From NCBI RefSeq assembly GCF_009923995.1, contig NZ_RFSK01000028.1, forward strand, positions 1 to 64,000: a DNA stretch of 64,000 nt. Direction: 5' to 3'. The stretch is from Janthinobacterium sp. (GTDB lineage: Bacteria; Pseudomonadota; Gammaproteobacteria; Burkholderiales; Burkholderiaceae_D). The notes beneath the pieces are model-generated. The model was given only the letters and a program-made list of their open reading frames with translations, did not search any database and was not told where the DNA came from. This document shows, in pieces, positions 22,677 through 37,576 of this stretch (its first letter is position 1; each line of letters begins with the position of its first letter). A program made the translations under genes and the position numbers.

Positions 22677-22706
22677 GAACGGCACTTCCCGCAAGGGAAA
22701 GCAGCG

Positions 22707-22743
22707 CGGCGTGGACACCGGACGGTCTCCACGCCGTTTTTTT
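22707..22743 (+). terminator. Rho-independent terminator after ETF-QO
   Basis: A 13-bp hairpin with one mismatch (arms start CGGCGTGGA and end TCCACGCCG) followed by seven T residues, 30 bases beyond the stop codon. Confidence 0.9.
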
Positions 22744-22825
22744 GCCAAAACAACCATGGTTGCCGGCAACGCCGCCCTCACGGTGGCGCGCGGCACCACA
22801 TTTCCGGGAAGTTCAGACGAAGAAG

Positions 22826-22858
22826 TTTCTCTAAAGCACTTCTTACCGTTACAATTCC
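22826..22858 (+). promoter_or_regulatory. Candidate promoter of TPR/SGNH gene (shared motif, site 1)
   Basis: The stretch TTTC, then TCTAAAGCAC and, 20 bases after the TTT, GTTACAAT-TCC closely matches the region before the OGT gene (33297-33329) in both words and spacing. A related form lies before the aminotransferase operon. This suggests one regulator or sigma factor for the modification genes. It does not fit the sigma-28 consensus spacing. Confidence 0.4.
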
Positions 22859-22893
22859 AGTCTTTCCGACTGGCACGTCCGTTCCCTGCTCCC

Positions 22894-24567
22894 ATGTGCG
22901 CCAACACCCGCCCTGCACCGCCCCGCCCTGACGCACAGCAACTGCCGCAGGCCCGGCCAGCCGTGGACGACATCGCGGCGCTCCGCGCGCGCACCATGAC
23001 GGTCTTGCAGGCTGCGGCGGACGACCAGGATGCCGCCGTGGCGGATACCCTGCATGCCGCGCTGGCGGCAGGGCCGACGGCAGCGGCGGCCAGCGCCGTG
23101 GCGGCGGGCCTGCTGCGGCAAGGCCATGCCGAACTTGCCCGCGACTGGCTGGCCACGGCACTCGGGCTGGAGCCAGACTGCCTGTCCGCCCTCCTGCTCA
23201 GGGCCTCGTGCGAGATACTGCAGGGCGAGCCATCCAGGGCGATCGCCACATACGGGCACATCATCGACAGGCATCCGTCCGACATCGAGGCGTGCATCGA
23301 GCTGGGCACACTGCTGACAAATGCACGCGACTGGGAAGGCGCCCTGCGGGCGACGCAGCTGGGCCTAGCCAGGCGGCCCGGCACGGCAGCTCTTTGCGCC
23401 CGCCGTATCGACCTGCTGCTGAGGCTGGAGCGCGACGACGACGCCCTGCAGTTTCTGCGCACGCTGCCGCCCGCCGTTTGCGCGGATCCGGCCATGGCGC
23501 ACGCCAGGGTCAGCCTGCTCAACCGCTCGGGGCAATTCGATGCCGCCCGGCAGGTGCTGGACGCCAGCGTCGCCGATACCGTTGCGCTGCGCACTTTTGA
23601 CTTGCGGCTGATCAACCAATGGCTGACCTCCTGCCTGTCCGGCGCGCAAGGCCTCGCGCACTTCCCCGCGCAGGTAGCCCGCTTTTCCGCCCACCTGAGC
23701 GATGACCGGCGCTACCAGGGCCTGCTCGCCGCCTATGCCATGATCGGCGCGTGGCTGCATGCCGACCGCGCGGAAGTCGTGCGCATTGCTGAGTTGCATG
23801 CCGACTTCGCGGACATGGCCGATATCGACGAGGATCGCGCCATGCGCGTGTTTTACCGCTACCTGCGCCAGTTGGCAGCGGCGTGTCCGGCGACGGCGGC
23901 GGATGCGTCGCGCCCCCTGGCGCTGCTGCATGTCATCGGCGAATCGCACAGTTTATCGCCCGGCAACACAGTGTTTGCATGGCAGGGACGCCAGGTGCAG
24001 GCGCGCAGCAGGTTTATCATGGGCATCCAGATGCACCACCTTGCCCAAGCGGGGCAAAATACCTACAAACAACATTTGCAGAGCCATCTCGATGCCATCG
24101 GCGAAGGTGCATTGCTGCTCACCATGGGCGAAATCGATTGCCGTCCCGTCGAAGGCATGTGGCGGGCGGCGCAGCGCGGCCACGGCCCGCTCGACGCGCT
24201 GATCGGCTCGACCGTGGCTGGCTACCTGGCCTTCCTCGACCAGGCCTTGCGCCAGCGCCCATGGCCATCCATTACGCTGCAAGGCGTGCCGGCCCCCGGC
24301 TACGACCTGACGGACCGGCGCGACCCCGGCGACAAGCGCGGTTTCCTCGACATGATAGACAGCGTCAATACCCTGCTGAAGGCAGGTGCGCAGGAGCGGC
24401 ACTGGCACTTCCTGGACGTGCATGGCGCGACTGCCGGACAGGACAGGCTGGGCAATGGCCGCTGGCACCTGGACCGCTTCCACCTGGCGCCGGCGTTCTA
24501 CCAGCAAGCCGGACACTGGCTGCTTCAGGCACCCCGGCCTGCCGGCGGGGATGGCGCACCGACATGA
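22894..24567 (+). CDS. TPR-repeat protein with C-terminal SGNH-hydrolase-like domain
   Basis: A 557-residue protein that I do not recognise as a named family. Residues about 50-330 form helical TPR-like repeats (segments such as ELARDWLATALGLEPDCLSALLL and IATYGHIIDRHPSDIEACIELG). From about residue 340 the sequence switches to an alpha/beta pattern with GESHSLSPGN (near 348), TMGEIDCR (near 411) and a final DRFHLAP in which D527 and H530 form a DxxH pair. These are the marks of an SGNH-type hydrolase or acyltransferase. The ATG at 22894 follows the conserved upstream motif, so the longer frame is not used. Its place beside the glycan island suggests it trims or acylates a glycan; this is inference. 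Confidence 0.65.
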   Translation: MCANTRPAPPRPDAQQLPQARPAVDDIAALRARTMTVLQAAADDQDAAVADTLHAALAAGPTAAAASAVAAGLLRQGHAELARDWLATALGLEPDCLSALLLRASCEILQGEPSRAIATYGHIIDRHPSDIEACIELGTLLTNARDWEGALRATQLGLARRPGTAALCARRIDLLLRLERDDDALQFLRTLPPAVCADPAMAHARVSLLNRSGQFDAARQVLDASVADTVALRTFDLRLINQWLTSCLSGAQGLAHFPAQVARFSAHLSDDRRYQGLLAAYAMIGAWLHADRAEVVRIAELHADFADMADIDEDRAMRVFYRYLRQLAAACPATAADASRPLALLHVIGESHSLSPGNTVFAWQGRQVQARSRFIMGIQMHHLAQAGQNTYKQHLQSHLDAIGEGALLLTMGEIDCRPVEGMWRAAQRGHGPLDALIGSTVAGYLAFLDQALRQRPWPSITLQGVPAPGYDLTDRRDPGDKRGFLDMIDSVNTLLKAGAQERHWHFLDVHGATAGQDRLGNGRWHLDRFHLAPAFYQQAGHWLLQAPRPAGGDGAPT

Positions 24568-24882
24568 TGCCGCCGCGCTGCCAGGCCCCCGGGGGGGAGC
24601 GGCGCAAGGCCGCAATAGGCAAAAAAACACCTTGAGAAAAAATTCCTTGTGGAAAGTTTCTTTTACCTCCACCAGCAGTTACAATCCGCTCTGGCCTACT
24701 CCATCACCGATTTTCTTATGTACGCAACCGCCCGCGCCGCACTGGAACATGCCCCTCTCTTGTTGCTGCAGAGCCACTGCGGAGCAGCGGCCCACGCGCT
24801 GCCCGCGCCCTGACGCCTCTGCCTGTATATGTCCGCGCCGGGCTGGCGGACAAGCAGAAAAAATGACCCAACAAGAGGCACT
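24568..24882. other. 315-base intergenic region before the aminotransferase operon
   Basis: No convincing gene. It holds a C6G7 palindromic core near 24586-24597 without a T-run, the candidate promoter at 24651-24687, and a possible 31-codon open frame from 24718 to 24813. That frame begins with ATG but has no ribosome binding site, so the long leader is probably untranslated. Confidence 0.5.
24651..24687 (+). promoter_or_regulatory. Candidate promoter of glycan-biosynthesis operon (shared motif, site 2)
   Basis: GGAAAGTTTC, a 19-base spacer counted from the TTT, then TTACAATCC. The right half is almost identical to sites 1 and 3, while the AAAGCA word of the other sites is missing. It lies about 195 bases before the first gene of the operon. 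Confidence 0.35.
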
Positions 24883-26049
24883 ATGATGACCGCACCGGCA
24901 AAACCAGCAACGCCGATCTATGTAACCCAGTCGCTGCTGCCAGCGCTGGAAGATTTCATTCCGTATCTGGAGGAAATCTGGAAGCACAACATTCTCACCA
25001 ATGGCGGGCCCTTCCACCACCAGCTGGAAGAAGCACTGTGCGACTATCTGGGTGTCAAGCATATTTGCCTGTTCACCAACGGCACCCTGGCATTGATCAC
25101 CGCATTGCAGGCGCTGCGCATCACCGGCGAGGTCATCACCACTCCCTATTCCTTCGTGGCGACGGCCCATTCCCTGCTGTGGAATGGCATCAAGCCGGTC
25201 TTTGTCGACATTGATCCGCTTACCTTCAACATGGACCCGGACAAGATCGAAGCGGCCATCACGCCGCAAACGACGGCCATCATGCCTGTCCATTGCTATG
25301 GGCAACCTTGCGACGTCGAGCGCATCCAGCGTATTGCCGACAACTATGGACTGAAGGTCATCTATGATGCCGCGCATGCCTTTGCCGTGCAGCACAAGGG
25401 CGCAAGCGTACTGAACCATGGAGACCTTTCGGTACTGAGTTTTCACGCCACCAAAGTCTTCAATACTTTTGAGGGTGGCGCCATCGTGTGTCCGGACGCC
25501 AAGACCAAGACGCGCATCGACCACCTGAAAAACTTCGGCATAGTCGGCGAGACCACCGTCGTGGCCCCGGGGATCAACGGCAAGATGAGCGAAATCAATG
25601 CCGCCTTCGGCCTGCTGCAGCTGAAAGGCATCGACCAGGCCTTGCAGCGGCGCGCCGAGGTGGATGCCTACTATCGCCAGCGCCTGGCGCGGGTCCCGGG
25701 CATACGCTGCCAGCCGGCAGCGGACGGCATCACCAACCACGCCTACTTTCCCGTGCTGGTCACGCCCGCCTTCCCCCTCAGCCGCGACCAGCTGTTCCAG
25801 CACCTGCGCGACAACAATATCTATGCGCGCCGCTATTTCTACCCCTTGATCAGCGATTTCCCCATGTACCGGGGAATGGCCTCGGCAGCCCCGGCCAATC
25901 TGCCGGCGGCCCGCCAGGCAGCCGAACAGATCATTTGCCTGCCGCAGTATCCGGGACTGACGTTCGAGCAGATCGATTTCATCGTCAGTCTCATCACTGA
26001 CGCGACGCATGCCATGCCGCCCGCCGCCGTAGCGGCCATCGCCGTATGA
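24883..26049 (+). CDS. DegT/DnrJ/EryC1/StrS sugar aminotransferase
   Basis: A 388-residue PLP-dependent aminotransferase that puts an amino group on a nucleotide-linked keto sugar. The PLP lysine is Lys191 in SFHATKVFNT, the cofactor Asp is in YDAAHAFA (162), and TNGTLALITAL forms the phosphate-binding region. The family makes viosamine, perosamine and similar 3- or 4-amino sugars found on O-antigens and glycosylated flagellins. Start: tandem ATG codons at 24883/24886 after CAAGAGGCAC. It is the first gene of a coupled operon, and the next gene (WbqC) starts inside its stop codon (ATGA). Confidence 0.92.
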   Translation: MMTAPAKPATPIYVTQSLLPALEDFIPYLEEIWKHNILTNGGPFHHQLEEALCDYLGVKHICLFTNGTLALITALQALRITGEVITTPYSFVATAHSLLWNGIKPVFVDIDPLTFNMDPDKIEAAITPQTTAIMPVHCYGQPCDVERIQRIADNYGLKVIYDAAHAFAVQHKGASVLNHGDLSVLSFHATKVFNTFEGGAIVCPDAKTKTRIDHLKNFGIVGETTVVAPGINGKMSEINAAFGLLQLKGIDQALQRRAEVDAYYRQRLARVPGIRCQPAADGITNHAYFPVLVTPAFPLSRDQLFQHLRDNNIYARRYFYPLISDFPMYRGMASAAPANLPAARQAAEQIICLPQYPGLTFEQIDFIVSLITDATHAMPPAAVAAIAV

Positions 26050-26744
26050 AGGTGGCCATCATGCAGCCGTACTTTTTTCCGTACATCGGCTATTTCCAGC
26101 TCATTGCGGCGGCGGACGTCTTTGTCTTGTATGACAATATTGAATACACGAAAAAAGGCTGGATCAACCGTAATAGAATGCTGCTAAATGGCAAAGATGC
26201 CATGTTTTCGCTGCCGCTCAAGAAAGACAGCGACACCCTGCACGTGCGTGAGCGCATGCTCGCCGGCGATTTCAAGGCGGCCAAGCTGCTGGCGCAGTTC
26301 GCCGGCGCCTACCGCAAGGCTCCCTATTTTGCGCACACCATGGCCTTGATCGAATCGATTCTGCAGTATGTGCCGCACAACCTGTTCGACTTCCTGCACC
26401 ACAGCCTGCGGCAGACATGCGCACACCTGGGCATAGGCACGCCGATACGGGTGTCCTCCGGCATCGCCATCGACCACGGGCTGAAAAGCCAGGACAAGGT
26501 GCTGGCCATCTGCCAGGCGCTCGCGGCCGACACCTATGTCAATGCCATCGGCGGGCAGGCACTGTATTCGACGGAGACATTCCGGCAAGCAGGCATCGAC
26601 TTGCGCTTCATCCAGTCGCAGCCGTTCAGCTACCCACAGTTCGGCTTGCCTTTCGTGCCCTGGCTCTCGATCATCGACGTGCTGATGTTTAATCCGGCCG
26701 CCAGCGTACGGCAGGCCATCGAGGACAAGTACGCACTGCTCTGA
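26046..26744 (+). CDS. WbqC family protein
   Basis: A 232-residue protein of the WbqC-like family. It begins MKVAIMQPYFFPYIGYFQLI and continues with FVLYDNIEYTKKGWINRNRM, both diagnostic. WbqC proteins are found in O-antigen and flagellin-modification clusters next to sugar aminotransferases; an acyl or aminoacyl transfer to the amino sugar has been suggested, but no general activity is established. It overlaps the aminotransferase stop codon by four bases, so translation is coupled. Its first 200 bases are visibly more AT-rich than the surrounding genes, which may reflect transfer. Confidence 0.88.
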   Translation: MKVAIMQPYFFPYIGYFQLIAAADVFVLYDNIEYTKKGWINRNRMLLNGKDAMFSLPLKKDSDTLHVRERMLAGDFKAAKLLAQFAGAYRKAPYFAHTMALIESILQYVPHNLFDFLHHSLRQTCAHLGIGTPIRVSSGIAIDHGLKSQDKVLAICQALAADTYVNAIGGQALYSTETFRQAGIDLRFIQSQPFSYPQFGLPFVPWLSIIDVLMFNPAASVRQAIEDKYALL

Positions 26745-26818
26745 CCGTGCACGGGTTCGCCCACGGCTGGCGCCAGGCGAACGCATTGCGGCGCACACTT
26801 CCCTATCCTGGACATATC

Positions 26819-27949
26819 ATGCAAACAACAGACAGCAGCAAGCGCTCCATCCTGATTTTTCCTGGCGGAACGCCCAGGTCGCTGGAATTCCTTCAAAAAT
26901 GCCTGGCGGACGGCAAGGCCGTGGTGGGCGCGTCCTCGCTGCTGCATGATCCGTCGCGCGACAAGTACCCGGCCTGGCGGCACCTGCCCTACATCACGGA
27001 CGCCAATTTTGATGCCGCCTTGCAGGACTGCATCGCCAGCGCCGGCATCGGCGGCATATACACGCCCAACCCCGTCATCTGGGACCATCTGCACCGGACG
27101 TTGCACGAACTGGCGCCCGGCGTGACGCTGCTCAACGCGTCGCCGGCAAATGCCGAACTGGCCGCCTACCGCGAGGCACGCGCGCAGGTGGCGGCTTGGC
27201 AGGCCCGGCCGCTGCAGTTCTGCACCGGGGTACCTGCCCGTCCAGGCGCCAGCGCGATCGAACTGGCCGCCCTGTTCCGCCATGCCGAACTCATACCGGG
27301 CATGTGCGACCACGAAAAAATGTTTGCCCTGGCGGAAGTCGCGCGCCATGCCGTGCGTGGCGACATCGTGGAAATCGGCAGCTGGTGGGGCAAATCCGCT
27401 TTCCTGCTGGCCTGGCTTGCACGCTGCTATCAAATCGGCAAGCTGCTGTGCGTCGATCCCTGGTCGAATGCGCACCTGGTGCAGCATGACGAAAAAGGAT
27501 TGGTGGACCAGGTTTCGGCGCAATTCGATGCCAGCGAAGCGCTGACCGTGTTCGAGATGAATCTGCTGCCCTACAGCCACGACCACGTCAACTACCTGCG
27601 CCTGCCTTCCGACGAAGGCGCACAGCACTACCGCCAGCGGCGCGAGGTCCGGACGGAGGCGTTCGGCAGCACGCACTACCACGGTGAAATTGCCTTGCTG
27701 CATATCGACGGCAATCACAGCTATGCCGCAGCCCGGTCCGACCTGGCGAGCTGGAGTCCCCTCGTCGCCGCAGGCGGCTGGATCATCGTCGATGATTATA
27801 TCTGGCCGTACGGCGATGGCCCGCAGCGTGCGGGCGACGAATTCATTGCGCAATACCGGCACGGCATCGGCACGGCGTTCGTCATGGGCAGCGCCCTGTT
27901 CCTGCAATTGTCGCGGCGCCTGGAAGACACCGATGCCACGGCACCCTGA
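26819..27949 (+). CDS. PreATP-grasp-like / class I SAM methyltransferase fusion
   Basis: A 376-residue protein with two parts. Residues 1-110 have an alternating strand-helix pattern (ILIFPGGTPRSLEFLQKCL, then YTPNPVIWDHLH) that looks like the domain preceding ATP-grasp folds. From about residue 160 a methyltransferase follows, with motif I VEIGSWWGKSAFLLAW near 184, CVDPWSN, and ALLHIDGNHSY-x-AARSDL near 294, as in the Methyltransf_24 group. The start at 26819 is the first ATG before the N-terminal strand. It probably O- or N-methylates an intermediate of the island's sugar. No standard name fits the fusion. Confidence 0.75.
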   Translation: MQTTDSSKRSILIFPGGTPRSLEFLQKCLADGKAVVGASSLLHDPSRDKYPAWRHLPYITDANFDAALQDCIASAGIGGIYTPNPVIWDHLHRTLHELAPGVTLLNASPANAELAAYREARAQVAAWQARPLQFCTGVPARPGASAIELAALFRHAELIPGMCDHEKMFALAEVARHAVRGDIVEIGSWWGKSAFLLAWLARCYQIGKLLCVDPWSNAHLVQHDEKGLVDQVSAQFDASEALTVFEMNLLPYSHDHVNYLRLPSDEGAQHYRQRREVRTEAFGSTHYHGEIALLHIDGNHSYAAARSDLASWSPLVAAGGWIIVDDYIWPYGDGPQRAGDEFIAQYRHGIGTAFVMGSALFLQLSRRLEDTDATAP

Positions 27950-27988
27950 GCAACCATGCAAGGCGGCCCCCACATTGAAAGGAAGCGC

Positions 27989-28837
27989 ATGCGCATACTG
28001 ATCGTCGGAGCGAGTTCGTCGCTGGCGCAGGCGCTGATACCCATCCTGTCGCAGTTTGCGCAGGTATTCCGCGCCGGCCGCGCGGATGGCGATATCCACC
28101 TGGACCTGAGCGACGAGCTCGACCCGCGCCAGCTGCCACCGGGCATCGACGTACTCGTCAACGCCGCCGCAAGCTTTGGCGGCACCGATCCGTCTGCCGT
28201 GTACGTGACGGAACAGGTCAATGCGCTCGGCACGCTCAAGCTGTGCCAGCTGTGCACGGCCGCGTCGATTCCCCATATGCTGCAGGTTTCCAGCATCTTC
28301 GCCAGCCTGGATGCGGCGTCGCCGTTCTACACCGCCTACTCCCTGTCCAAGCGCCATGCGGATGAATTGGCCCAGCTTTACTGCAAGAATGCCGGCCTGG
28401 CCTTGACGATCATCAAGCCCTCGCAATTCTATGGCGTCGGCCAGGCCTACCGCCAGCACCAGCCCTTCCTGTTTTCCATCATCGACAAGGTGGCGAACAA
28501 CGAAGACGTGGCCATTTACGGCCGCCGCGACGCGCGCCGCAATTTCATCCACGTGGAAGACGTCGCGCACCTGATCGCCCTGGCCATCCAACGCCGGCTG
28601 ACCGGCAGCTATGCCTGTGCCCACCCCCAGGACGTCAGCTACTCGGACATTTTCCGCGCCGCGGCCCTGGCCTTCCACAGCAGCAGCCAGCTGCATTTCG
28701 TCCCGCAGCAGCCGGACATTGCCGACAATGTCTTCCCCGCCGACGACCGCCTGTTCCGCCTGCTGGGCTACACACCGCGGATTTCCTTCGCGGCGGGGAT
28801 GGCCAGGGAAGCGGCGCACAGAAAGGGCAAGCAATGA
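27989..28837 (+). CDS. NAD(P)-dependent sugar epimerase/reductase (extended SDR)
   Basis: A 282-residue extended SDR. The Rossmann start MRILIVGASSSLAQALI, the DVLVNAAAS segment and the catalytic Tyr-x-x-x-Lys in AYSLSKRHADE are visible; IIKPSQFYGVGQ and NFIHVEDVAHLIALA are typical of nucleotide-sugar epimerases and reductases. The ATG at 27989 follows AAAGGAAG. It likely acts on a nucleotide-activated sugar in the cytoplasm, before or after the aminotransferase step. It overlaps the next gene by four bases (ATGA). Confidence 0.87.
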   Translation: MRILIVGASSSLAQALIPILSQFAQVFRAGRADGDIHLDLSDELDPRQLPPGIDVLVNAAASFGGTDPSAVYVTEQVNALGTLKLCQLCTAASIPHMLQVSSIFASLDAASPFYTAYSLSKRHADELAQLYCKNAGLALTIIKPSQFYGVGQAYRQHQPFLFSIIDKVANNEDVAIYGRRDARRNFIHVEDVAHLIALAIQRRLTGSYACAHPQDVSYSDIFRAAALAFHSSSQLHFVPQQPDIADNVFPADDRLFRLLGYTPRISFAAGMAREAAHRKGKQ

Positions 28838-29811
28838 AAACAATCCTCGTCTCCGGCGCCAGCGGCATCGTCGGCTATGGCATCCTGCGCTCCCTGAAAA
28901 AAGCCGATCCCGCGCTGCGCCTGATCGGCACCTCCATGTACCGCGACTCGGTCGCCCAGGGTTTCTGCGACGTCTTCGAACTGGCGCCGCCCACGAGCCA
29001 GGCCGGCTATCTCGACTGGCTGTGCGCCACCATCGACAAGCATCAGGTCGACCTGCTCATCCCAGGCATCGAAATCGACCTGTACCACTGGATAGAGCAT
29101 CTGGCGCAGATAGAGCGGCATGGCGCGAAGGCCGTCATGAACCAGCCCGGGCTGGTGCGCCTGTGCAAGGACAAATGGGCCTTCTACGAGACGCTGCGCG
29201 CGGCGGACATGCCATGGGCGATCGACAGCAGCCTGCATGACGGATTCGACTTCCTGGCCAGTACGTTCGGCCTGCCCTTCCTGCTGAAGCCGCGCCGCGG
29301 CTTCGGTTCCAAGGGCATCGTCAGGGTCGACAGCGCGGCCACCTTCGAGCGGCACCGCCAGGATATCGGCCCCGTGCTGATGGCCCAGCCCATCATCGGC
29401 GACGACGACAACGAATTCACGCTGGCGGCGTTCGGCGACGGCCGCGGCGGCTATCACGCCAGCATCGCGCTGCGCAGGAAGCTCTCCAGGGATGGCTTTA
29501 CGGACAAGGCCGAAGTCGTTTCTGGCGAGCAATTTAACGCTGCCCTGACTGGCCTATGCCGGCAGTTTTCGCCCGTCGGGCCGACCAATTTCCAGTTCAG
29601 GACGTGCAGCGACGGCGTCAAATTGCTGGAGATCAATCCCCGCATTTCCTCGTCTACAGCCATCCGCACCGCATTCGGCTATAACGAGAGCGCCATGGCG
29701 GCCGACTTTTTCCTGCACGGGCAGACGCCTGCCGCGCCCGCCATCCGGCGTGGCCATGCCGTCCGTTACATAGAGGAGCATATATTTTATGACGATAGCC
29801 TTCATCTCTGA
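28834..29811 (+). CDS. ATP-grasp ligase, CarB-like
   Basis: A 325-residue protein with a nucleotide-binding N-terminal domain (KTILVSGASGIVGYGILRSL) and an ATP-grasp fold: lysine in PFLLKPRRGFGSKGIV, and the metal-binding LEINPRISSSTAIR near the C-terminus, as in carbamoyl-phosphate synthase large subunits. ATP-grasp enzymes join a carboxylate to an amine through an acyl-phosphate. Next to a sugar aminotransferase, attaching an amino acid or other acid to an amino sugar is a reasonable guess. It overlaps both neighbours and is plainly translated as part of the operon. Confidence 0.85.
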   Translation: MKTILVSGASGIVGYGILRSLKKADPALRLIGTSMYRDSVAQGFCDVFELAPPTSQAGYLDWLCATIDKHQVDLLIPGIEIDLYHWIEHLAQIERHGAKAVMNQPGLVRLCKDKWAFYETLRAADMPWAIDSSLHDGFDFLASTFGLPFLLKPRRGFGSKGIVRVDSAATFERHRQDIGPVLMAQPIIGDDDNEFTLAAFGDGRGGYHASIALRRKLSRDGFTDKAEVVSGEQFNAALTGLCRQFSPVGPTNFQFRTCSDGVKLLEINPRISSSTAIRTAFGYNESAMAADFFLHGQTPAAPAIRRGHAVRYIEEHIFYDDSLHL

Positions 29812-30466
29812 CATCCACGGCAATTTTGAAGCGCTGAAGGCCGTGCTGGCGGAAATTGACCGGCTCGGCGTGGAAGCCATTTATTGTGCCGGCGACGTCG
29901 TTGGCTACTATTCGCAAGTCAACGAGTGCTGCGACATGCTGCGCGCGCGCGCCATTGCCTGCGTCATGGGCAACCACGACTGGTATATGGCGGGCGGCGG
30001 CTTCTGCCCCCGCTCGCGCAGCGTCAACGACTGCCTCGTGTACCAGCGCAAGGTGATCAGCGAGGACAATCTGGCGTGGCTGAAAACCCTGCCGCTGCAG
30101 TTGCAGGTCGGAGAGGTCCGCATGGTGCATGGCGGCTGGGGCGACCCCATCGACGAATACCTGAAGCCCAGCGCGGACTATTTCGCGCAGGTGGAGGGGC
30201 GCATCTTCGTCTCGGGCCACACCCATGTCCAGCGGCTGGAGACCTATGACGGCAAGACCTACTGCAATCCGGGTTCCGTCGGCCAGCCCCGGGATGGCGA
30301 TCCGCGCGCCGCGTTCGCCTTGTACGGGGATGGCCGTTTCACGCTGCACCGCGTGGCCTACGACATGCAGCCCGTCTTCGACCTGATGCAGGCTGCGGGC
30401 TTCAACGACTATTACTATGGCGGCTTGAAAACGGGTTCCAAGGTGCTGCGGCGCCTCGACGAGTAA
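29789..30466 (+). CDS. Calcineurin-like metallophosphoesterase
   Basis: A 225-residue phosphoesterase. All metal-binding motifs are visible: DIHGN (8-12), GDVVGYY, GNHDWY, the VHGG histidine and GHTHVQ. It belongs to the YfcE/MJ0936-like single-domain group. The start overlaps the end of the ATP-grasp gene by 23 bases. Within this island it may remove a phosphate from a sugar or sugar-phosphate intermediate, or from a nucleotide sugar; the substrate is unknown. Confidence 0.9.
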   Translation: MTIAFISDIHGNFEALKAVLAEIDRLGVEAIYCAGDVVGYYSQVNECCDMLRARAIACVMGNHDWYMAGGGFCPRSRSVNDCLVYQRKVISEDNLAWLKTLPLQLQVGEVRMVHGGWGDPIDEYLKPSADYFAQVEGRIFVSGHTHVQRLETYDGKTYCNPGSVGQPRDGDPRAAFALYGDGRFTLHRVAYDMQPVFDLMQAAGFNDYYYGGLKTGSKVLRRLDE

Positions 30467-30509
30467 ATGGCCGGTACGTGACGGCAGAATTTGGCAAAGG
30501 ATCAAGGTA

Positions 30510-31481
30510 ATGTTCAAGTGGGAAAAGATGGGGAAGCTGTTCGACCCCAAGGATCTGAATGGCGGCAGCTGGATGCATGATTTTGCCCAGTCGCCAACCG
30601 TATTGGTCGACGACGACCGCGTGCGCGTGTATTTCTGCTCCAGGCCTGCGCCCGTCGACGGTCAATACGTCAGTTACATGGCATATATCGACCTGGACAG
30701 GCACAACCTGCTGCAGGTCACCCACGTTTGCCAGGCCCCGCCGCTGGACCTGGGCGGCTATGGCACGTTCGACGAATTCGGCATCAATCCCCTCACCGTG
30801 ATTCGCGATGCGCAGCAGGTGCGCGTGTACTACGGCGGCTGGACGCGCTGCGAATCGGTGCGCTTCAACGCCGCCATCGGCATCGCCGTCAGCGACGATA
30901 ACGGCGATACCTTCCGCCGCCTGGGGCCGGGACCCGTGCTGGGCTACAGCCCCGATGAACCCTTCCTGCTGGGCAGTCCGCGCGTGCGCCAGTACGGCGG
31001 GCAATGGCATATGTGGTATGTCGCCGGCAAGGAATGGCGCGAAACGGATGGCAAGCCCGAACCCATCTATAAAATCCGCATGGCAAGCTCTGCCGACGGA
31101 ATCGAGTGGGTCACGCATGGTCGCGACCTGATCGAGGACAAGCTCGGGGAACACGAATGCCAGGCGTGCCCGGACGTCATTTTCCGTGACGGCGCCTACC
31201 ATATGTTCTTTTCCTACCGCGACATCCGCGACTACAAGGGCCCGCAGGGCGGCTATCGCATCGGCTATGCCAGCTCCACTGACCTGCTGCACTGGCAACG
31301 CAACGACGACCTTGCCGGCATGCAAGTCTCGGACGGCGGCTGGGATGGGGAAATGGTCAATTACCCGCACGTTTTCGTTGTCGATGGCACAACGTATATG
31401 GTTTATCAAGGCAATGAAATGGGACGCGCCGGCATCGGCCTGGCCAGGTTGCCGGCATCACAAGACTGGAGCGCGCGATGA
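30510..31481 (+). CDS. Glycosidase-like beta-propeller protein, paralogue 1
   Basis: A 323-residue protein with a five-bladed propeller pattern like the GH43/GH32/GH130 superfamily. It begins MFKWEKMGKLFDP and has DFAQSPTVLVDDDRVRVYF, repeated W-G and D-G turns, and DEPFLLGSPRVRQYGGQWHMWYV. Such folds act on sugars as hydrolases or phosphorylases. The second copy starts in its stop codon, and the two align from end to end, so they arose by tandem duplication. No signal peptide is present, so both work in the cytoplasm, which argues for a role in precursor handling and not polysaccharide digestion. Confidence 0.75.
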   Translation: MFKWEKMGKLFDPKDLNGGSWMHDFAQSPTVLVDDDRVRVYFCSRPAPVDGQYVSYMAYIDLDRHNLLQVTHVCQAPPLDLGGYGTFDEFGINPLTVIRDAQQVRVYYGGWTRCESVRFNAAIGIAVSDDNGDTFRRLGPGPVLGYSPDEPFLLGSPRVRQYGGQWHMWYVAGKEWRETDGKPEPIYKIRMASSADGIEWVTHGRDLIEDKLGEHECQACPDVIFRDGAYHMFFSYRDIRDYKGPQGGYRIGYASSTDLLHWQRNDDLAGMQVSDGGWDGEMVNYPHVFVVDGTTYMVYQGNEMGRAGIGLARLPASQDWSAR

Positions 31482-32485
31482 AATGGGAAAAACTGGGCAA
31501 GCTGTTCGATCCGTCCGAGCATGCATTGCCAAACAACTGCGTCGATTTTGCCCAATCGCCGCAAACGCTGGTGCTGCCGGACCGGGTACGCATCTATTTT
31601 TCGACGCGCGAACGCGACAGCACGGGCAAATACCTGAGCCATGTCGCCTTCGTGGATGTCGACCGCTCGCTGCGCAACATCATCGGCACCTCCAGCGGCA
31701 CGGTCATTCCCCTCGGCGGCCTCGGCTGTTTCGATGAACACGGCATCTTTCCGGTCAACATGGTGCGTGATGGCGAACGGGTGCTGGCCTATACCACCGG
31801 CTGGAACCGCAAGGTATCCGTCTCCGTCGACGCCAGCATCGGGCTGGCCATCAGCCACGACGATGGCTTGACGTTCCAGAAGCATGGCACGGGGCCGGTC
31901 ATGTCCGCCTCGCTGCACGAACCGTTTCTGGTGGCCGATGCCTACGTTGCGATCCATGCCGAAACGTACCATATGTGGTACATCTACGGCACGGCATGGA
32001 AAAAGTTCGACCCGGCACAGCCGCCTGACCGCGTCTACAAGATCGCCCATGCCACCTCGGCGGACGGCATCCACTGGCGGCGCGACGGCAAGGCCATCAT
32101 CGCGGACCGGCTGAACGAAGACGAATGCCAGGCGCTGCCCACGGTATTTGAACGCAACGGCTTGCATCACATGTATTTTTGCTATCGGCAAGCGCATGGT
32201 TTCCGCACGGATAGCAATAGCGCCTACCGCATCGGCTATGCCTGGTCGCGCGACATGCTGGAGTGGACGCGCGACGACAGCCTGGCCGGCATCGATGTCG
32301 CGGCGGACGGCTGGGATTCCCAAATGCAATGCTATCCGCACACCTTTGCGCTGGATGGCGAGATCTACATGCTGTACAACGGCAATGCCTTCGGCCGCGC
32401 AGGATTCGGCCTGGCCCGCCTGCTCGATGCCCCTGCGCACGCTGGCCCCCCTTCCGTTCCGACTTCCCCGGAGAATCAACCATGA
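31478..32485 (+). CDS. Glycosidase-like beta-propeller protein, paralogue 2
   Basis: A 335-residue paralogue of the preceding gene. It shares MKWEKLGKLFDP, DFAQSPQTL, the LHEPFLVADAYVAIHAETYHMWYIYG blade (compare the first copy) and the closing GRAGFGLARL. The divergence is considerable, so the two probably have distinct roles or form a heteromer. It overlaps the first copy by four bases at the start and the methyltransferase by four bases at the end. A hydrolase or phosphorylase role on sugars is inferred from fold only. Confidence 0.75.
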   Translation: MKWEKLGKLFDPSEHALPNNCVDFAQSPQTLVLPDRVRIYFSTRERDSTGKYLSHVAFVDVDRSLRNIIGTSSGTVIPLGGLGCFDEHGIFPVNMVRDGERVLAYTTGWNRKVSVSVDASIGLAISHDDGLTFQKHGTGPVMSASLHEPFLVADAYVAIHAETYHMWYIYGTAWKKFDPAQPPDRVYKIAHATSADGIHWRRDGKAIIADRLNEDECQALPTVFERNGLHHMYFCYRQAHGFRTDSNSAYRIGYAWSRDMLEWTRDDSLAGIDVAADGWDSQMQCYPHTFALDGEIYMLYNGNAFGRAGFGLARLLDAPAHAGPPSVPTSPENQP

Positions 32486-33249
32486 GTACCGCAAGAAACT
32501 ATAACCAGGAACTCGACGATTCCGCCAATCAGGCAAACGAAAAGTATTCCTACGGCTTTGATTTCGACGTCATGCACCCGTACATGATCCGCTCGTTCCT
32601 GCCCTTCTTCAAGCAGGGCAGCCTGCTCGAACTGGGGAGCTACAAGGGCGATTTCACGCGGCGTTTCCTGCCCTACTTTACCGACATCACCTGCGTGGAA
32701 GCGTCCGACGAAGCGCTGGCCGAAGCCAGGCGGCGCCTGGGCGATCGCGTGCAGTTCGTGCATTCCATGTTCGAGCACGCCACGCTGCCCCGACAATACG
32801 ACAACATCGTCCTCACGCACGTGCTGGAGCACCTCGACGATCCCGTCGCCGTGCTCAGGCGCATAGGCGAGGAATGGCTGGCGCCAGGCGGACGCCTGTT
32901 TCTCGTCTGCCCGAATGCGCATGCGCCGTCGCGCCAGATCGCCGTGAAGATGGGACTCATCAGCCACAATACGGCGGTGACCCCGGCCGAGGCGGAGCAC
33001 GGCCACCGCTGCACCTATACGCTCGACACGCTGGAACGCGATGCGGTCAGTGCCGGCTTGTCGGTAGTGCACCGTTCGGGCATCTTTTTCAAGGCGCTGG
33101 CCAATTTCCAGTGGGACAGGCTGCTGCAGACCGATATCATCTCTCCCGCCTACCTGGACGGTTGCTATCAGCTGGGCCAGCAATACCCGGACCTGTGCTC
33201 CAGCATCTTTTTGCTATGCGAATCGCCGCGCGCGGACGCCATGAGCTGA
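32482..33249 (+). CDS. Class I SAM-dependent methyltransferase
   Basis: A 255-residue methyltransferase. Motif I is LLELGSYKGDFTRRF, the acidic strand 2 end is CVEASDEAL, and VLTHVLEHLDDPVAVLRRI followed by WLAPGGRLFLVCPN is typical of the UbiE/COQ5-like Methyltransf_11/23 groups. The ATG at 32482 overlaps the previous stop and follows a GGAGAATCAACC ribosome binding site. Last gene of the coupled nine-gene run, it could O-methylate the sugar; the substrate is not known. Confidence 0.88.
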   Translation: MSTARNYNQELDDSANQANEKYSYGFDFDVMHPYMIRSFLPFFKQGSLLELGSYKGDFTRRFLPYFTDITCVEASDEALAEARRRLGDRVQFVHSMFEHATLPRQYDNIVLTHVLEHLDDPVAVLRRIGEEWLAPGGRLFLVCPNAHAPSRQIAVKMGLISHNTAVTPAEAEHGHRCTYTLDTLERDAVSAGLSVVHRSGIFFKALANFQWDRLLQTDIISPAYLDGCYQLGQQYPDLCSSIFLLCESPRADAMS

Positions 33250-33296
33250 GCGCGCAACAATCGCCGAGGCTTGCATGCCGGCAGTGGCGCGGAAAA

Positions 33297-33329
33297 TTTC
33301 CTCAAGGCATCTTTAGCGGTTAAAATCCG
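33297..33329 (+). promoter_or_regulatory. Candidate promoter of OGT gene (shared motif, site 3)
   Basis: TTTC, CTCAAGGCATC, then GGTTAAAATCC with the same 20-base distance between TTT and TTAAAAT as at site 1. It lies 28 bases before the start of the OGT gene. See site 1 for the comparison. Confidence 0.4.
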
Positions 33330-33357
33330 GGCTGGCAAAATCCTTTCATTCCTCCCC

Positions 33358-36249
33358 ATGCGCGCTACAGCCCGACCCCATTTGCCACTGCCGGCACCGG
33401 TACAACCCAGCCCTGCCCAGCAACAGGCGGCGGCGCAAGCGGATGCGGACGCCTGCCGGGCAGCGCTTGCCAGCCGTCCGGATGATGCGCAGCTGCATCA
33501 TCAACTGGCCAAGAGCCTCGTTGCACTGACACAGTACGACGCTGCAGAGGCAGCGTTCCAGCAGGCGATAGCACTGGCGCCCGGCGCCGCGCTACTGTGC
33601 GACCACGGCGAACTGCTGGCCCTGACGCAGCGCCATGCGCTGGCGATCGAGGCCTATCAGGCCGCGCTGCGGCATGAACCCGGCAATGCGGCAACCTACA
33701 ATTGCCTGGGCCTGTCCTTCCAGGCCAGCGGCCAGCTGCAGCAGGCGCTCGATGCCTACCGGAAAATGCTACACCACCTGCCGGGCAACGCCTTGGCCTA
33801 CAACAATATCGGTTCCGTCCTGCAGGCCCAGGACCAGCTGGAAGAGGCGCTGGAGCACTACCGGCAGGCCCAGCTCGCCGCGCCGTATTTTCAGTACGCC
33901 CATTTCAATGCGGGCACCTGCCTGATGCGGCTGGAACGCTTCGAGGAAGCCCAGGCCTGCTTCGTCGAAACCATCCGGCTCGACGCGGGTTTTCACCTGG
34001 CGCATATCAACCTCAGCGCCATCCAGGGCAAACTGGGCCATCTGGATGACACGATCGCGACGTGCCGGCGCGCGCTTGCCGTCAATCCGGCGTGGGCCGA
34101 CATGCATAGCAACCTGCTGTTCACCCTCAGCCACAGCGCCCAGCTCGGTCCCGCAGCCCTGTTTGCCGAGCACCGGCACTTCGGCGAACAGTTCGAGACG
34201 CCGCTGCGCGCCGCCTGGCCCCGCCATGCCAACGTGCGCGATCCCGCCCGCCGGCTGCGCGTGGGCTTTGTCTCCGCCGACCTGAACAATCATGCCGTGG
34301 CCAACTTCATTGCGCCCGTGCTGGAACACCTGGTGCATGCGGAGGGGCTGGAACTGCACATCTATTGCAACAACATCATCAACGATGCCGTGACCACGCA
34401 GTTGCGCGACGTCGTGCGCCACTGGCACGACGTGCAGGCGCTGTCGGACGAACAGCTGGCGCTGAACATCCAGGCCGACGGCATCGACATCCTCGTCGAC
34501 CTGTCCGGCCACACGGGCCACAACCGCCTGCAGACCTTTGCCCGCAAGCCTGCGCCGCTGCAGGCCACGTGGATAGGCTATCCGCTGAGCACGGGCCTGC
34601 AGTCGATGGATTACTACCTGACGGACCGCTTCTTCTCGCCCCCCGGCCTGCTCGACGAGCAGTTCACGGAAAAGCTGCTGCGCCTGCCCGCCACCGCGCC
34701 CTTCATGCCCTCGGCCGTCTCGCCGCCGGTCAGCGCCGCCCCCGCAAGCGTGCACGGCTACATCACGTTCGGCAGCTTCAACCGTCCGGGCAAGCTGAGC
34801 GCCGCCGTCATCGCGCGCTGGTCGCGGCTGCTGCGCGCCGTGCCGACGGCGAAAATGCTGCTGGCGGCCATGCCGAGCGAACAGATCAGCGATACCTTGC
34901 GCGCCGCCTTTGTCAAGGAAGGCATCGCCGCGGAACGCCTCAGTTTTCACCCGCACACCAACACGCGCGACTACCTGGCCCTGCACAGCCAGGTCGACGT
35001 CTGCCTCGATACCTCGCCCTACAACGGCGGCACCACCACCTGCCACGCGCTGTGGATGGGCGTGCCGACGCTCACCATGACGGGCCCCACCTTGCCCGGC
35101 AGGGTAGGCGCGGCCATCCTCGAGCAAGTCAGTCTGGCCGAGTTCATCGCCAGCGACGACGACGACTTCCTGCAAAAAGGCATCGCCATCGCCGGCGACC
35201 CGGCACATCTTGCGCAGCTGCGCACGGGCATGCGCGCGCGCATGAGCAACGCGCCCTCCGGCCAGCCGGCGCTGATCGCCGCTGGCCTCGACAATGCGCT
35301 GCGCGGCATGTGGCAGCGCCATTGCGCCGGCCTGCCGCCCGCCTCGTTCGACGCCGAGCCGGCGCAAAGCTCGCTGCACCAGCGCGCCACCAGCCTGCAA
35401 TCGCTGCATGACGTCAACGTCGACGCCGCCCTGCTGCTGGCCATCGAGCATCACCAGTCCAGCCGCTTCGTCGAGGCCGAAACGCTGTACCTGGCGATCA
35501 TCCACAGCCAGCCCCGCCACGTGATCGCCAACCATAATATGGGCTTGCTGGCAACGCAGCTGGGTTTCCCGCACGAAGCCCTGCCCTATTTGTCCGCGGC
35601 ACATGATGCGGCGCCGCAACAAGCGGAGTTTTGTCTTTCCTATGCACAAGGGCTGCTGCGGGCAGGCCAGGCCCGGCAGGCGCACAACGTGCTGGCGGCC
35701 GCCATCGCGCGGGGACTCGACGATGACGCATTGCCAGCCCTGCTGCAGCAGGCCGTCGTGGCCCTGACGACGCCGACGCAGGACGAGGCCGACTACGTCG
35801 TCGCCCTGTACCAAGCCGGCCAGCATGCCGAACTGGAAGCGGCCGCGCACACCCTGGTGGCGCGCTATCCGGAATCCGGCTTTGCCTGGAGCGTGCTGGG
35901 CACGGCGCTGCAGGCACAGGGCAAGGACGCGCTGGCCACCTTGCAAACGGCCGTGGCGCTGGCGCCGGACGACGCGCAGACCCACGGCAACCTGGGCAAC
36001 GCCTGGCAGGAACAGGGGCAGCACGCGCGCGCCATCGAATGCTATGCCCGGGCACTGGCCCTGGACGTCGGCTTTGCCGATGCCTACTGCAACATGGGCA
36101 GCGCCCAGGCAGCCCTGGGCCAGGCGGCCGAGGCGGCGGAAAGCTACCGCATGGCGCTGGCGCTGGAGCCGTCCCACGACCTGGCGCGGCAAAAAAACGC
36201 GGCCTTGCAGCAGGCGCAGGCGGCACTTTCCGCCAGCGCCGAAAAATAA
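33358..36249 (+). CDS. O-GlcNAc-transferase-like glycosyltransferase with flanking TPR arrays
   Basis: A 963-residue protein with TPR repeats at about residues 30-290, a GT41 (OGT/SPINDLY) catalytic region at about 299-650, and a second TPR array at about 690-955. Catalytic landmarks are LRVGFVSADLNNHAVANF (299), DLSGHTGHNRLQTFARKPAPLQ, TFGSFNRPGKLS (469) and TSPYNGGTTTCHALWMGVPT (about 551), which corresponds to the nucleotide-sugar site. GT41 enzymes transfer GlcNAc or another sugar to Ser/Thr of proteins. The ATG at 33358 is the first plausible start. It lies directly upstream of the flagellin gene, making flagellin the likely acceptor. TPRs on both sides of the catalytic core are uncommon. 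Confidence 0.85.
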   Translation: MRATARPHLPLPAPVQPSPAQQQAAAQADADACRAALASRPDDAQLHHQLAKSLVALTQYDAAEAAFQQAIALAPGAALLCDHGELLALTQRHALAIEAYQAALRHEPGNAATYNCLGLSFQASGQLQQALDAYRKMLHHLPGNALAYNNIGSVLQAQDQLEEALEHYRQAQLAAPYFQYAHFNAGTCLMRLERFEEAQACFVETIRLDAGFHLAHINLSAIQGKLGHLDDTIATCRRALAVNPAWADMHSNLLFTLSHSAQLGPAALFAEHRHFGEQFETPLRAAWPRHANVRDPARRLRVGFVSADLNNHAVANFIAPVLEHLVHAEGLELHIYCNNIINDAVTTQLRDVVRHWHDVQALSDEQLALNIQADGIDILVDLSGHTGHNRLQTFARKPAPLQATWIGYPLSTGLQSMDYYLTDRFFSPPGLLDEQFTEKLLRLPATAPFMPSAVSPPVSAAPASVHGYITFGSFNRPGKLSAAVIARWSRLLRAVPTAKMLLAAMPSEQISDTLRAAFVKEGIAAERLSFHPHTNTRDYLALHSQVDVCLDTSPYNGGTTTCHALWMGVPTLTMTGPTLPGRVGAAILEQVSLAEFIASDDDDFLQKGIAIAGDPAHLAQLRTGMRARMSNAPSGQPALIAAGLDNALRGMWQRHCAGLPPASFDAEPAQSSLHQRATSLQSLHDVNVDAALLLAIEHHQSSRFVEAETLYLAIIHSQPRHVIANHNMGLLATQLGFPHEALPYLSAAHDAAPQQAEFCLSYAQGLLRAGQARQAHNVLAAAIARGLDDDALPALLQQAVVALTTPTQDEADYVVALYQAGQHAELEAAAHTLVARYPESGFAWSVLGTALQAQGKDALATLQTAVALAPDDAQTHGNLGNAWQEQGQHARAIECYARALALDVGFADAYCNMGSAQAALGQAAEAAESYRMALALEPSHDLARQKNAALQQAQAALSASAEK

Positions 36250-36361: not shown

Positions 36362-37504
36362 ATGCTGAGCCTTCACACCAATGCAGCGGCCCTGTCCGCA
36401 CAAAATTCGATCTCGAAAACCCAATCGTCGCTGTCGACCTCGATGACCCGCCTGTCCACCGGCTTCCGCATCAACTCGGCAATGGATGACGCTGCAGGCC
36501 TGCAAATTGCAACCCGCCTGAAGGCACAAACGAGCGGCATGGCCATGGCAATGCGCAACACGCAAAACGCCACCTCGATGATCCAGACCGCCGACGGCGC
36601 GCTGAACGAAACCGTCAACATCCTGGTCCGCATGAAGGATCTGGCAACGCAAGGCGCGGATGCTTCGGCAACCGACGCTGACAAAACCGCAATGCAAGCT
36701 GAATTCGACACCCTGACGGCTGAATTGAGCAACGTTCTGGGCAACACCTCGTTCGGTGGCGCGAAACTGCTGACCAGCAAAGCAACCGCAGCACAACAAA
36801 CCAACGCCGTGACCGCCGCCGCTGCAGCCGCTTCCGCAGCAGCCACCTCGACCACCGCCCTGGCTTCGGCCAACGCCAGCTACGCTTCGGCACTGGCAGC
36901 GAATGCCTCGTCGACCCCAGCTACCGTCTCCGCCCTGGCCCTGGCCGAATCCGCGCTGACCGCAGCAAAAGCAACCGACGCAGCTGCCCAGCTGGCAAAA
37001 ACCACGACGGCCAGCTACTCCGCTGCCGCCGCCGCATCGTCGGTCGATGGCAAAATGGCAAGCGCACTGAACTTCCAGATCGGCTCGTCGACCTCGGAAA
37101 CCATGGGTCTGGACCTGTCCGGCCAACTGGGCGCGATGCACTCGGCACTGGCTAGCGCCAGCGCTGAATACAACTCGTTCGGCGCGCCGATCGCAGGTGG
37201 CGGTGCAGAACTGACCGCTGCAGGCGGCGCATCGCAAACCATCGACAAGCTGCAAGCAGCTATCGATGCAGTCGGTTCGGTACGTTCGGCACTGGGTGCA
37301 GCGGGCAACCGTCTGGACCACGTTGCCACCAACCTGGCCAACATCAGCACCAACACCCAGGCAGCAACGGGCCGTATCATGGACACCGACTTCGCGACCG
37401 AAAGCTCGAACATGACCGCTTCGCAAATGCTGCTGCAAGCTGGTACCGCAATGTTGAAACAAAGCAACAGCATGTCCTCGATGGTCATGTCCCTGCTGCA
37501 ATAA
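36362..37504 (+). CDS. fliC: Lateral-type flagellin
   Basis: A 380-residue filament protein. The conserved N-terminal D0/D1 region begins MLSLHTNAAALSAQNSI, a LafA-like start, and the C-terminal region ends MLKQSNSMSSMVMSLLQ. The centre (about residues 140-230) is an Ala/Ser/Thr-rich low-complexity stretch exposed on the filament surface, with many hydroxyl residues available for O-glycosylation. No cysteine is present. Codon choice (many CTG, GCA, ACC, TCG) suggests high expression. A GGAG ribosome binding site precedes the ATG and a strong terminator follows. It would be lafA in the lateral nomenclature. The OGT-like enzyme upstream is the natural candidate modifier. Confidence 0.95.
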   Translation: MLSLHTNAAALSAQNSISKTQSSLSTSMTRLSTGFRINSAMDDAAGLQIATRLKAQTSGMAMAMRNTQNATSMIQTADGALNETVNILVRMKDLATQGADASATDADKTAMQAEFDTLTAELSNVLGNTSFGGAKLLTSKATAAQQTNAVTAAAAAASAAATSTTALASANASYASALAANASSTPATVSALALAESALTAAKATDAAAQLAKTTTASYSAAAAASSVDGKMASALNFQIGSSTSETMGLDLSGQLGAMHSALASASAEYNSFGAPIAGGGAELTAAGGASQTIDKLQAAIDAVGSVRSALGAAGNRLDHVATNLANISTNTQAATGRIMDTDFATESSNMTASQMLLQAGTAMLKQSNSMSSMVMSLLQ

Positions 37505-37546
37505 TAGTCCCCGCGTCCTGACCTGGCTCAGGTCAGGCCGACCAGA

Positions 37547-37576
37547 GCCAACTGCGCAAGCAGTTGGCTTTTTTTT
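37547..37576 (+). terminator. Rho-independent terminator after flagellin gene
   Basis: A perfect 9-bp stem (GCCAACTGC / GCAGTTGGC) with a GCAA loop followed by eight T residues, 42 bases past the flagellin stop. Confidence 0.95.

Follow-up and report, generated by a model that had tools for sequence, protein, structure and literature searches.

We propose that a 13.6-kb island in a Janthinobacterium genome belongs to a set of interchangeable flagellin-glycosylation cassettes that share one slot, fixed in place by etfQO on one side and the lateral flagellin gene on the other, and we regard this reading, with the chemistry set out below, as likely. Judged from its sequence, the cassette probably directs the synthesis of an unusual sugar decorated with an amino acid, and its attachment to the lateral filament. 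The island lies in a 64,000-nucleotide stretch of contig NZ_RFSK01000028.1, referred to here as the window. Its gene content, the slot, an empty site, the variability of the slot and the mutual exclusivity of the acyl modules are established here.

Gene content and flagellar setting of the island

The island (22677..36242) lies between the stop of etfQO (22676) and the leader of the lateral flagellin gene (36243). All of its genes are on the + strand, and from the DegT gene through MT23 adjacent genes overlap or lie no more than 75 bases apart. It opens with a putative accessory protein combining TPRs with a GDSL/SGNH hydrolase-like part (22894..24567, +; Pfam TPR_19 1e-9, Lipase_GDSL_2 2e-4, the latter under its cut-off), and G210 has a 53% homologue in the same place. 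It continues with a DegT aminotransferase of the VioA type, the candidate for dTDP-Qui4N synthesis (24883..26049, +; Pfam 1e-103; open frame from 24829, with AGAGG just before 24883), a WbqC family protein proposed to act as amino-acid ligase on the Qui4N 4-amine (26046..26744, +; Pfam 3e-68) and the SAM methyltransferase MT24 (Methyltransf_24/TylF; 26819..27949, +; Pfam 9e-18; open frame from the GTG at 26747). A trio follows: an epimerase/dehydratase-like SDR, the usual ATP-grasp partner (27956..28837, +; Pfam 9e-23; in 16/18 of the ATP-grasp loci described below), an ATP-grasp ligase that may cap the amino acid where other cassettes use a GNAT (28834..29811, +; Pfam ATPgrasp_Ter 1.5e-10; NCBIfam PRK12767.1-1 197 bits, cut-off 218) and a calcineurin-like phosphoesterase, also an ATP-grasp partner (29789..30466, +; Pfam 1e-25; in 18/18 such loci). 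Next come PropA, a propeller of the GH43/32/130 kind (30510..31481, +; Pfam GH32N 1.7e-4, just under cut-off), its paralogue PropB (31478..32485, +; 46% identical), the SAM methyltransferase MT23 (Methyltransf_23; 32482..33249, +; Pfam 3e-19 on a longer frame) and a TPR-GT41-TPR glycosyltransferase, the candidate flagellin O-glycosyltransferase (33358..36249, +; Pfam 1.5e-47). The proposed acceptor, lateral flagellin, is encoded at 36362..37504 (+; Flagellin_N 9e-39, Flagellin_C 2e-22).

Pfam recovered every gene family that the first-pass annotation of this DNA had named, directly before the flagellin gene. That annotation had also noted the absence of a flippase, and HMMs built here gave no Wzx or GtrA match in the window slot. 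KAS III, AMP-ligase and VioB-like genes were not found in the window island by Pfam or by HMMs built here, and Rfam at gathering scores gave no match in the window. Much of the island gene order recurs in other genera.

The motif GTTA(C/A)AATCC or GTTACAATTCC, with A(G/A)TTTC 17-18 bases before it, occurs three times in the window (22848, 24678 and 33319), each time in front of one of the island genes (TPR-SGNH, DegT and GT41). Flagellin leaders in the nine genomes compared have a common AT-rich block ending in ATTTAAT; this block and the three-copy motif possibly reflect common regulation. The three-copy motif was absent from L055 at the same strictness, and a sigma-70 scan returned 2 sites compared with 3.3 in shuffles. 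A strong hairpin and T run directly 3' of the flagellin gene (37544-37571) is a likely terminator.

FlhA, FlhB, FliR and FliP are encoded downstream of the island flagellin on the opposite strand, which marks this as a flagellar locus. Elsewhere in the genome (6.18 Mb, 154 contigs), C79 encodes a second flagellin together with a FliF, a FliK and a FliD belonging to it; the eight ORFs scanned there included no sugar genes. Because of this second set, and because a LafA homologue has been named in Janthinobacterium (excerpt of PMC5773237), the label "lateral" is reasonable. Next to the lateral flagellin lies a gene (37600-38697) without a Pfam match, which we call FliK-like from its place alone. 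Ser/Thr residues are hardly enriched in the variable part of the lateral flagellin (27%, against 23% in the rest). By match count, several genomes of the genus (L170-L173, L204-L221) have 2-5 tandem lateral flagellin genes, and the window has one.

A fixed slot with variable content across the genus

The genus set comprised 40 genomes, the window's own included. The FliK-like gene (37600-38697) was found in 37/40, and the slot was read upstream of it in 35 of those 37; G092 and G218 were left out because in both this gene is close to the end of a contig. In 35/35 genomes read, etfQO lies at one end of the slot and lateral flagellin at the other. Four slots are empty, their flanks 131-225 bp apart, and 31 hold islands of 5.5-16.4 kb. 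In G168 the contiguous flanks match the window at 22477-22676 (96% of 200 bp) and from 36243 (91% of 410 bp), with the island absent and a gap of 225 bp between them. Because this empty site matches both flanks, the stretch present in the window and missing there is 22677-36242, and the range given for the island in the first-pass annotation was nearly exact.

We surveyed the slot with HMMs trained on the window's own sequences and those of its relatives. The GT41 catalytic domain was present in 31/31 islands, as was a DegT matching the VioA model, two of these matches being weak (G200 and G211, 259-264 bits versus 622-718 bits in the others). Neither Wzx (0/31) nor GtrA (0/31) was found by these models in any slot island, in keeping with the flippase-free assembly that the first-pass annotation suggested.

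Acylation genes differed among the islands. WbqC was accompanied by ATP-grasp and phosphoesterase genes in 3/31 (G000, G210, G206), by a GNAT in 3/31 (G217, G197, G212) and by neither GNAT nor ATP-grasp in 2/31 (G200, G211). An AMP-ligase was found in 4/31, KAS III in 7/31, a high-scoring hexapeptide acyltransferase in 4/31 (one with a weak KAS III match) and only a weak hexapeptide match (29-43 bits) in 6/31; none of the modelled acylation modules was found in 2/31 (G214, G219). Pfam confirmed the KAS III, ketoreductase and hexapeptide genes in one genome, G136. All six islands with a GNAT or ATP-grasp have WbqC, versus 2/25 islands with neither, and none of the 23 islands outside the eight with WbqC (8/31) has a GNAT or ATP-grasp. 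The islands of G211 and G200 (L206, L214) have a different DegT (27-28% to the O121 DegT) and a divergent WbqC. G214 carries a second set of genes beyond etfQO, outside the slot (L163 3379-5627), with GNAT type 2, an O123-like hypothetical and WbqC.

PropB is present in 5/40 genus genomes, one being a weak match with an internal stop, and in 22/195 genomes drawn from the family (own genome included). ATP-grasp and GNAT seem not to need PropA/PropB, because G206 and G212 have acyl modules without propellers. Two GT41 blocks occur in 8/31 genus islands; the window island has one, and therefore its glycan may be shorter than that of two-block islands. Among the four empty-slot genomes, GT41 was found elsewhere in two (G201, G215) and in neither of the other two.

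Sugar and glycosyltransferase genes thus stand directly at the flagellin gene in the window, and in relatives the content of the same place varies (several island kinds) or is missing (4 empty slots of 35). Because GT41 and DegT are constant, Wzx and GtrA are absent and the acylation genes in the slot differ, we read the island as one for flagellin glycosylation whose acyl modules can be exchanged, probably around a Qui4N (viosamine) core.

Mutually exclusive acyl modules outside the genus

Scanning named genomes yielded 396 candidate stretches and 316 confirmed PropB relatives. We analysed the best 80 by similarity to PropB, Janthinobacterium sp. FT58W among them; because of this choice, and because some contigs are short, the proportions apply to these 80 alone. 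The loci are mostly from Pseudomonadota and Bacteroidota, with some records labelled as other phyla. Among these best 80 of 316, PropA was found in 78, WbqC in 74, MT23 or a distant paralogue in 74 and DegT in 68.

The loci carried GNAT type 1 (46), GNAT type 2 (7), ATP-grasp with phosphoesterase (18), a second, longer ATP-grasp (4) or none of these modules (5, two of which have an AMP-ligase match), and no locus of the best 80 of 316 carried two. If GNAT type 1 and ATP-grasp were independent, the probability of seeing them never coincide would be 6e-9, a value that, like the Fisher/hypergeometric values, ignores relatedness. The GNAT mostly lies between PropB and MT23, and the ATP-grasp trio lies between WbqC and PropA; correspondingly, the PropB-MT23 gap is below 150 bases in 16/18 ATP-grasp loci and the WbqC-PropA gap is below 150 bases in 40/44 GNAT type 1 loci having both genes. 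Because GNAT and ATP-grasp co-occur in 0/80 loci, ATP-grasp with its phosphatase would be an alternative to N-acetylation. The second ATP-grasp type has a C-terminal extension (L041 8764-10050) with weak sub-threshold similarity to HAD phosphatases, as if ATP-grasp were again coupled with a phosphatase. Its assignment as a HAD-like domain was dropped, as the Pfam matches were sub-threshold only (0.014-0.14).

A flagellin or FliD match was present in 10/80 loci, and all ten have a GT41 catalytic domain, compared with 8 of the 70 loci without such a match (one weak). The modules of the ten flagellar loci were GNAT type 1 in five, ATP-grasp in four and the second ATP-grasp in one. Wzx was found in 13/80 loci, none with GT41, and GtrA-type genes in 12/80, one locus having both and one GtrA locus having GT41 (best 80 of 316). 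The cassette itself is widespread, and the novelty suggested in the first-pass annotation was to that extent overstated. Because GT41 accompanies 10/10 flagellar loci and 0/13 Wzx loci, we view the sugar cassette as a general building block of which every flagellar copy sampled has a GT41.

On a PropB tree made by a quick method (12/78 inner branches starred), the modules are clustered: their labels take 14 changes when "none" is counted among them (shuffled mean 32.2) and 9 when it is left out. For flagellar context 7 changes are required, so cassettes switched context more than once, in a count of changes that does not distinguish gain from loss.

The sugar core and the proposed role of WbqC

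Sequence comparison points to Qui4N (viosamine) as the most likely sugar of the island. The window DegT shares 64% identity with an E. coli protein that carries the annotation VioA, scores 718 bits against a VioA HMM for which it was itself among the four building sequences, and has the PLP-lysine motif SFHATK. At the 30 E. coli DNA matches to DegT that were listed (of 133), the annotation is vioA. An RmlB is encoded at C133 (498.6 bits, curated cut-off 365.1), and the RmlB product is the usual Qui4N precursor. The DegTs of Bacteroidota cassettes are only 38-62% identical, which counts against our main reading.

E. coli O-antigen loci were reached through DegT; an E. coli DNA search using WbqC gave no match. 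In O121, rfbB, rfbA, DegT, WbqC and GNAT genes are consecutive, and an O123-type locus has WbqC with DegT and GNAT and no ATP-grasp. The O121 structure, as cited in a review, contains Qui4N with N-acetylglycyl (excerpt of PMC3210612). In O7, O39, O49 and one O116-type locus, vioA is accompanied by an acyltransferase that is either VioB-like or unspecified, and WbqC is not annotated within 4.5 kb of vioA; a second O116-type locus has vioA and no annotated acyltransferase. The E. coli plasmid pLAU-OXA3 (L142 4417-13291) carries a Qui4N-type sugar cluster flanked by transposases, with epimerase, dehydratase, rfbA, flippase-like, DegT, GNAT, deaminase-like PLP enzyme, ATP-grasp and glycosyltransferase genes.

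WbqC matches PF08889 with 230 bits (cut-off 21.3), a family called functionally uncharacterised in print (excerpt of PMC5532660). Its structural model shares the fold of BshC (4wbd) over 224/232 WbqC residues, with the catalytic core of BshC covered; Foldseek alone gave an E value of only 2e-3 for this pair. BshC couples cysteine to GlcN-malate (excerpt of PMC5372718). No BshC profile match was present among the six Pfam families matched by 15 WbqCs (E up to 10, HMMER filters on), and a WbqC profile searched against the PDB returned no BshC chain at E up to 10. Because of the BshC-like model and the parallel with E. coli O121, we propose WbqC as an amino-acid ligase; going by model and analogy, the amino-acid step fits WbqC better than ATP-grasp. 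The first-pass annotation had predicted an aminoacylated, methylated amino sugar. Context supports that prediction, which can now be refined to Qui4N, with WbqC the better candidate for the amino-acid step. Literature searches joining WbqC with flagellin glycosylation found nothing, most text matches to "WbqC" being an unrelated use of the letters, and those joining Qui4N with flagellin glycosylation gave nothing on this system by title.

The glycosyltransferase and the propellers

The island GT41 gene is the only one in the genome. Its product matches Glyco_transf_41 with 162.5 bits (cut-off 25), carries TPRs before and after the catalytic domain and finds SPINDLY as its best PDB match (2e-107). 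Read from the alignment, it keeps SPINDLY residues D491, H495, K665, Y744 and T748 and has Ala at S496 (numbering from an excerpt of PMC9715652); it carries D308, H312 and K479. In Caulobacter, the soluble TPR-glycosyltransferase FlmG suffices to O-glycosylate flagellin, to which its TPR part binds (excerpt of PMC7591256). The link to flagellin through GT41 that had been suggested at first is supported by context, GT41 being present in 31/31 slot islands and 10/10 flagellar loci. No Janthinobacterium flagellin glycan appeared by title among the literature matches listed.

A dTDP-sugar donor for this enzyme counts against our main reading. Known GT41 donors are UDP-GlcNAc and GDP-fucose, and we know of no GT41 that uses a dTDP-sugar. 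Several results given above also weigh against that reading: the small Ser/Thr difference within the flagellin, the GT41 genes outside the slot in G201 and G215, WbqC with neither GNAT nor ATP-grasp in G200 and G211, the second O116-type locus, the 5/80 loci lacking every module, and the failure of sequence profiles to connect WbqC with BshC. To these comes the lack of propellers and MT23 in O121.

The propellers match GH32N weakly (PropA 21.7 bits, PropB 26.0 bits, cut-off 22.1). PropB stays below the Glyco_hydro_130 gathering score (18.6 bits, cut-off 26), and PropA was unlisted for that family. Both are predicted from models to have the five-bladed propeller fold of GH130. Profile alignments to GH130 and GH117 were shifted by whole blades, and for that reason we assigned no catalytic residue. 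The propellers and MT23 are absent from the E. coli O121 locus, and the O123-type "hypothetical" (324 aa, propeller-sized) had no BLAST match to PropA/PropB at 1e-3.

Alternative readings and the proposed pathway

The wide occurrence of the cassette bears on the alternative that the island sugar serves a surface polysaccharide (O-antigen or capsule), with the adjacency to flagellin incidental and the GT41 modifying another protein. The propeller cassettes beside Wzx or GtrA-type genes would agree with this, as would the place of WbqC in E. coli O-antigen clusters. However, Wzx and GtrA are lacking throughout the slot islands, GT41 never accompanies Wzx in the 80 loci (one GtrA locus does have it), and the slot is tied to lateral flagellin in every genome read; we consider a polysaccharide role very unlikely. 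It is also quite improbable that the island yields a simple N-acyl Qui4N like that of Pseudomonas syringae, with WbqC and ATP-grasp serving a linker or second sugar. Modified viosamine on flagellin has been described (excerpt of PMC3927599), and the seven other slot islands with a VioS-kind KAS III (by Pfam in one) have the same DegT, but the window island contains no KAS III, AMP-ligase or VioB-like gene.

That ATP-grasp is the amino-acid ligase, with WbqC doing another step, we hold to be rather unlikely. ATP-grasp enzymes commonly form amide bonds, and pLAU-OXA3 has DegT, GNAT and ATP-grasp together with no WbqC, a combination that counts against our main reading. Against this stand the O121 and O123-type loci, which have WbqC, DegT and GNAT without ATP-grasp, the former with an amino acid in its structure; the 46 GNAT type 1 loci, which have neither of the ATP-grasp kinds searched; and the predicted BshC fold of WbqC.

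We thus retain the reading of a flagellin-glycosylation cassette, for which we infer all steps of the chemistry, and the modification of flagellin itself, as follows. RmlB from elsewhere in the genome (presumably with RmlA) would supply dTDP-4-keto-6-deoxyglucose, which the VioA-type DegT, by its similarity, would convert to dTDP-Qui4N. WbqC may then couple an amino acid to the Qui4N 4-amine, as its BshC-like fold and the O121 parallel suggest. Module exclusivity points to capping of this amino acid with a second acid by ATP-grasp, phosphatase and SDR, in place of the acetyl cap put on by GNAT elsewhere. The product would be methylated by the two methyltransferases, with the propellers in a tailoring or scaffold role. 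On the precedent of FlmG, the soluble TPR-GT41 would transfer the finished sugar from the nucleotide to lateral-flagellin Ser/Thr in the cytoplasm, before export. A bolder version, possible and still doubtful, is that WbqC is a BshC-like ligase whose work ATP-grasp continues into a peptide-like chain on Qui4N, giving a peptidyl sugar on flagellin; that PropA/PropB are a new GH130-fold tailoring class; and that the genus swaps cassettes to change its flagellar "glycotype".

Significance and comparison with known systems

Within the reach of these searches, three points are new: a slot that exchanges its content and is empty in some genomes, acyl modules that exclude one another, and the argument that WbqC acts as an amino-acid ligase. 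The mutually exclusive modules, seemingly on one sugar core, are a natural experiment that offers a testable function for WbqC. Our data suggest that the genus varies its lateral-flagellar coat by single-site cassette exchange, with empty sites as natural controls, and questions of phage receptors, host recognition and motility become directly testable through such exchange. If true, the flagellar "glycotype" is swapped at one locus much as O-antigens are.

Islands for flagellin glycosylation that contain GT41 and DegT (De Maayer and Cowan 2016, excerpt of PMC4875605) and acylated viosamine on flagellin (excerpt of PMC3927599) are already known, and the first-pass view that this is not a described flagellin-glycosylation system went too far. 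The Enterobacteriaceae islands resemble ours in being hypervariable and in having SPINDLY-kind GT41, DegT aminotransferases and methyltransferases; the available text of PMC4875605 names no WbqC, ATP-grasp or propellers, whereas the window island has all three. Ours differ further in their etfQO/lateral-flagellin slot, in a betaproteobacterium, and in a near-constant VioA-type DegT.

The viosamine island of P. syringae likewise has VioA and puts N-acylated and methylated Qui4N on flagellin (excerpt of PMC3927599). There, KAS III, reductase, ACP and VioB give a hydroxybutyryl group, on a rhamnose stem, whereas the window island has WbqC and ATP-grasp and lacks acyl genes of the VioB/VioS kind. 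E. coli O121 shares the order of DegT (58%) and WbqC (40%) and a Qui4N with an amino acid, but belongs to LPS with Wzx/Wzy, has GNAT in place of ATP-grasp and lacks propellers and GT41. BshC, the bacillithiol synthase, is similar in fold and in joining an amino acid to an amino sugar (excerpt of PMC5372718); it differs in having no Pfam or profile match with WbqC and a chain of 540 residues versus 232. Caulobacter FlmG uses pseudaminic acid (excerpt of PMC7591256), and its likeness to the island GT41 is that of a soluble TPR-glycosyltransferase.
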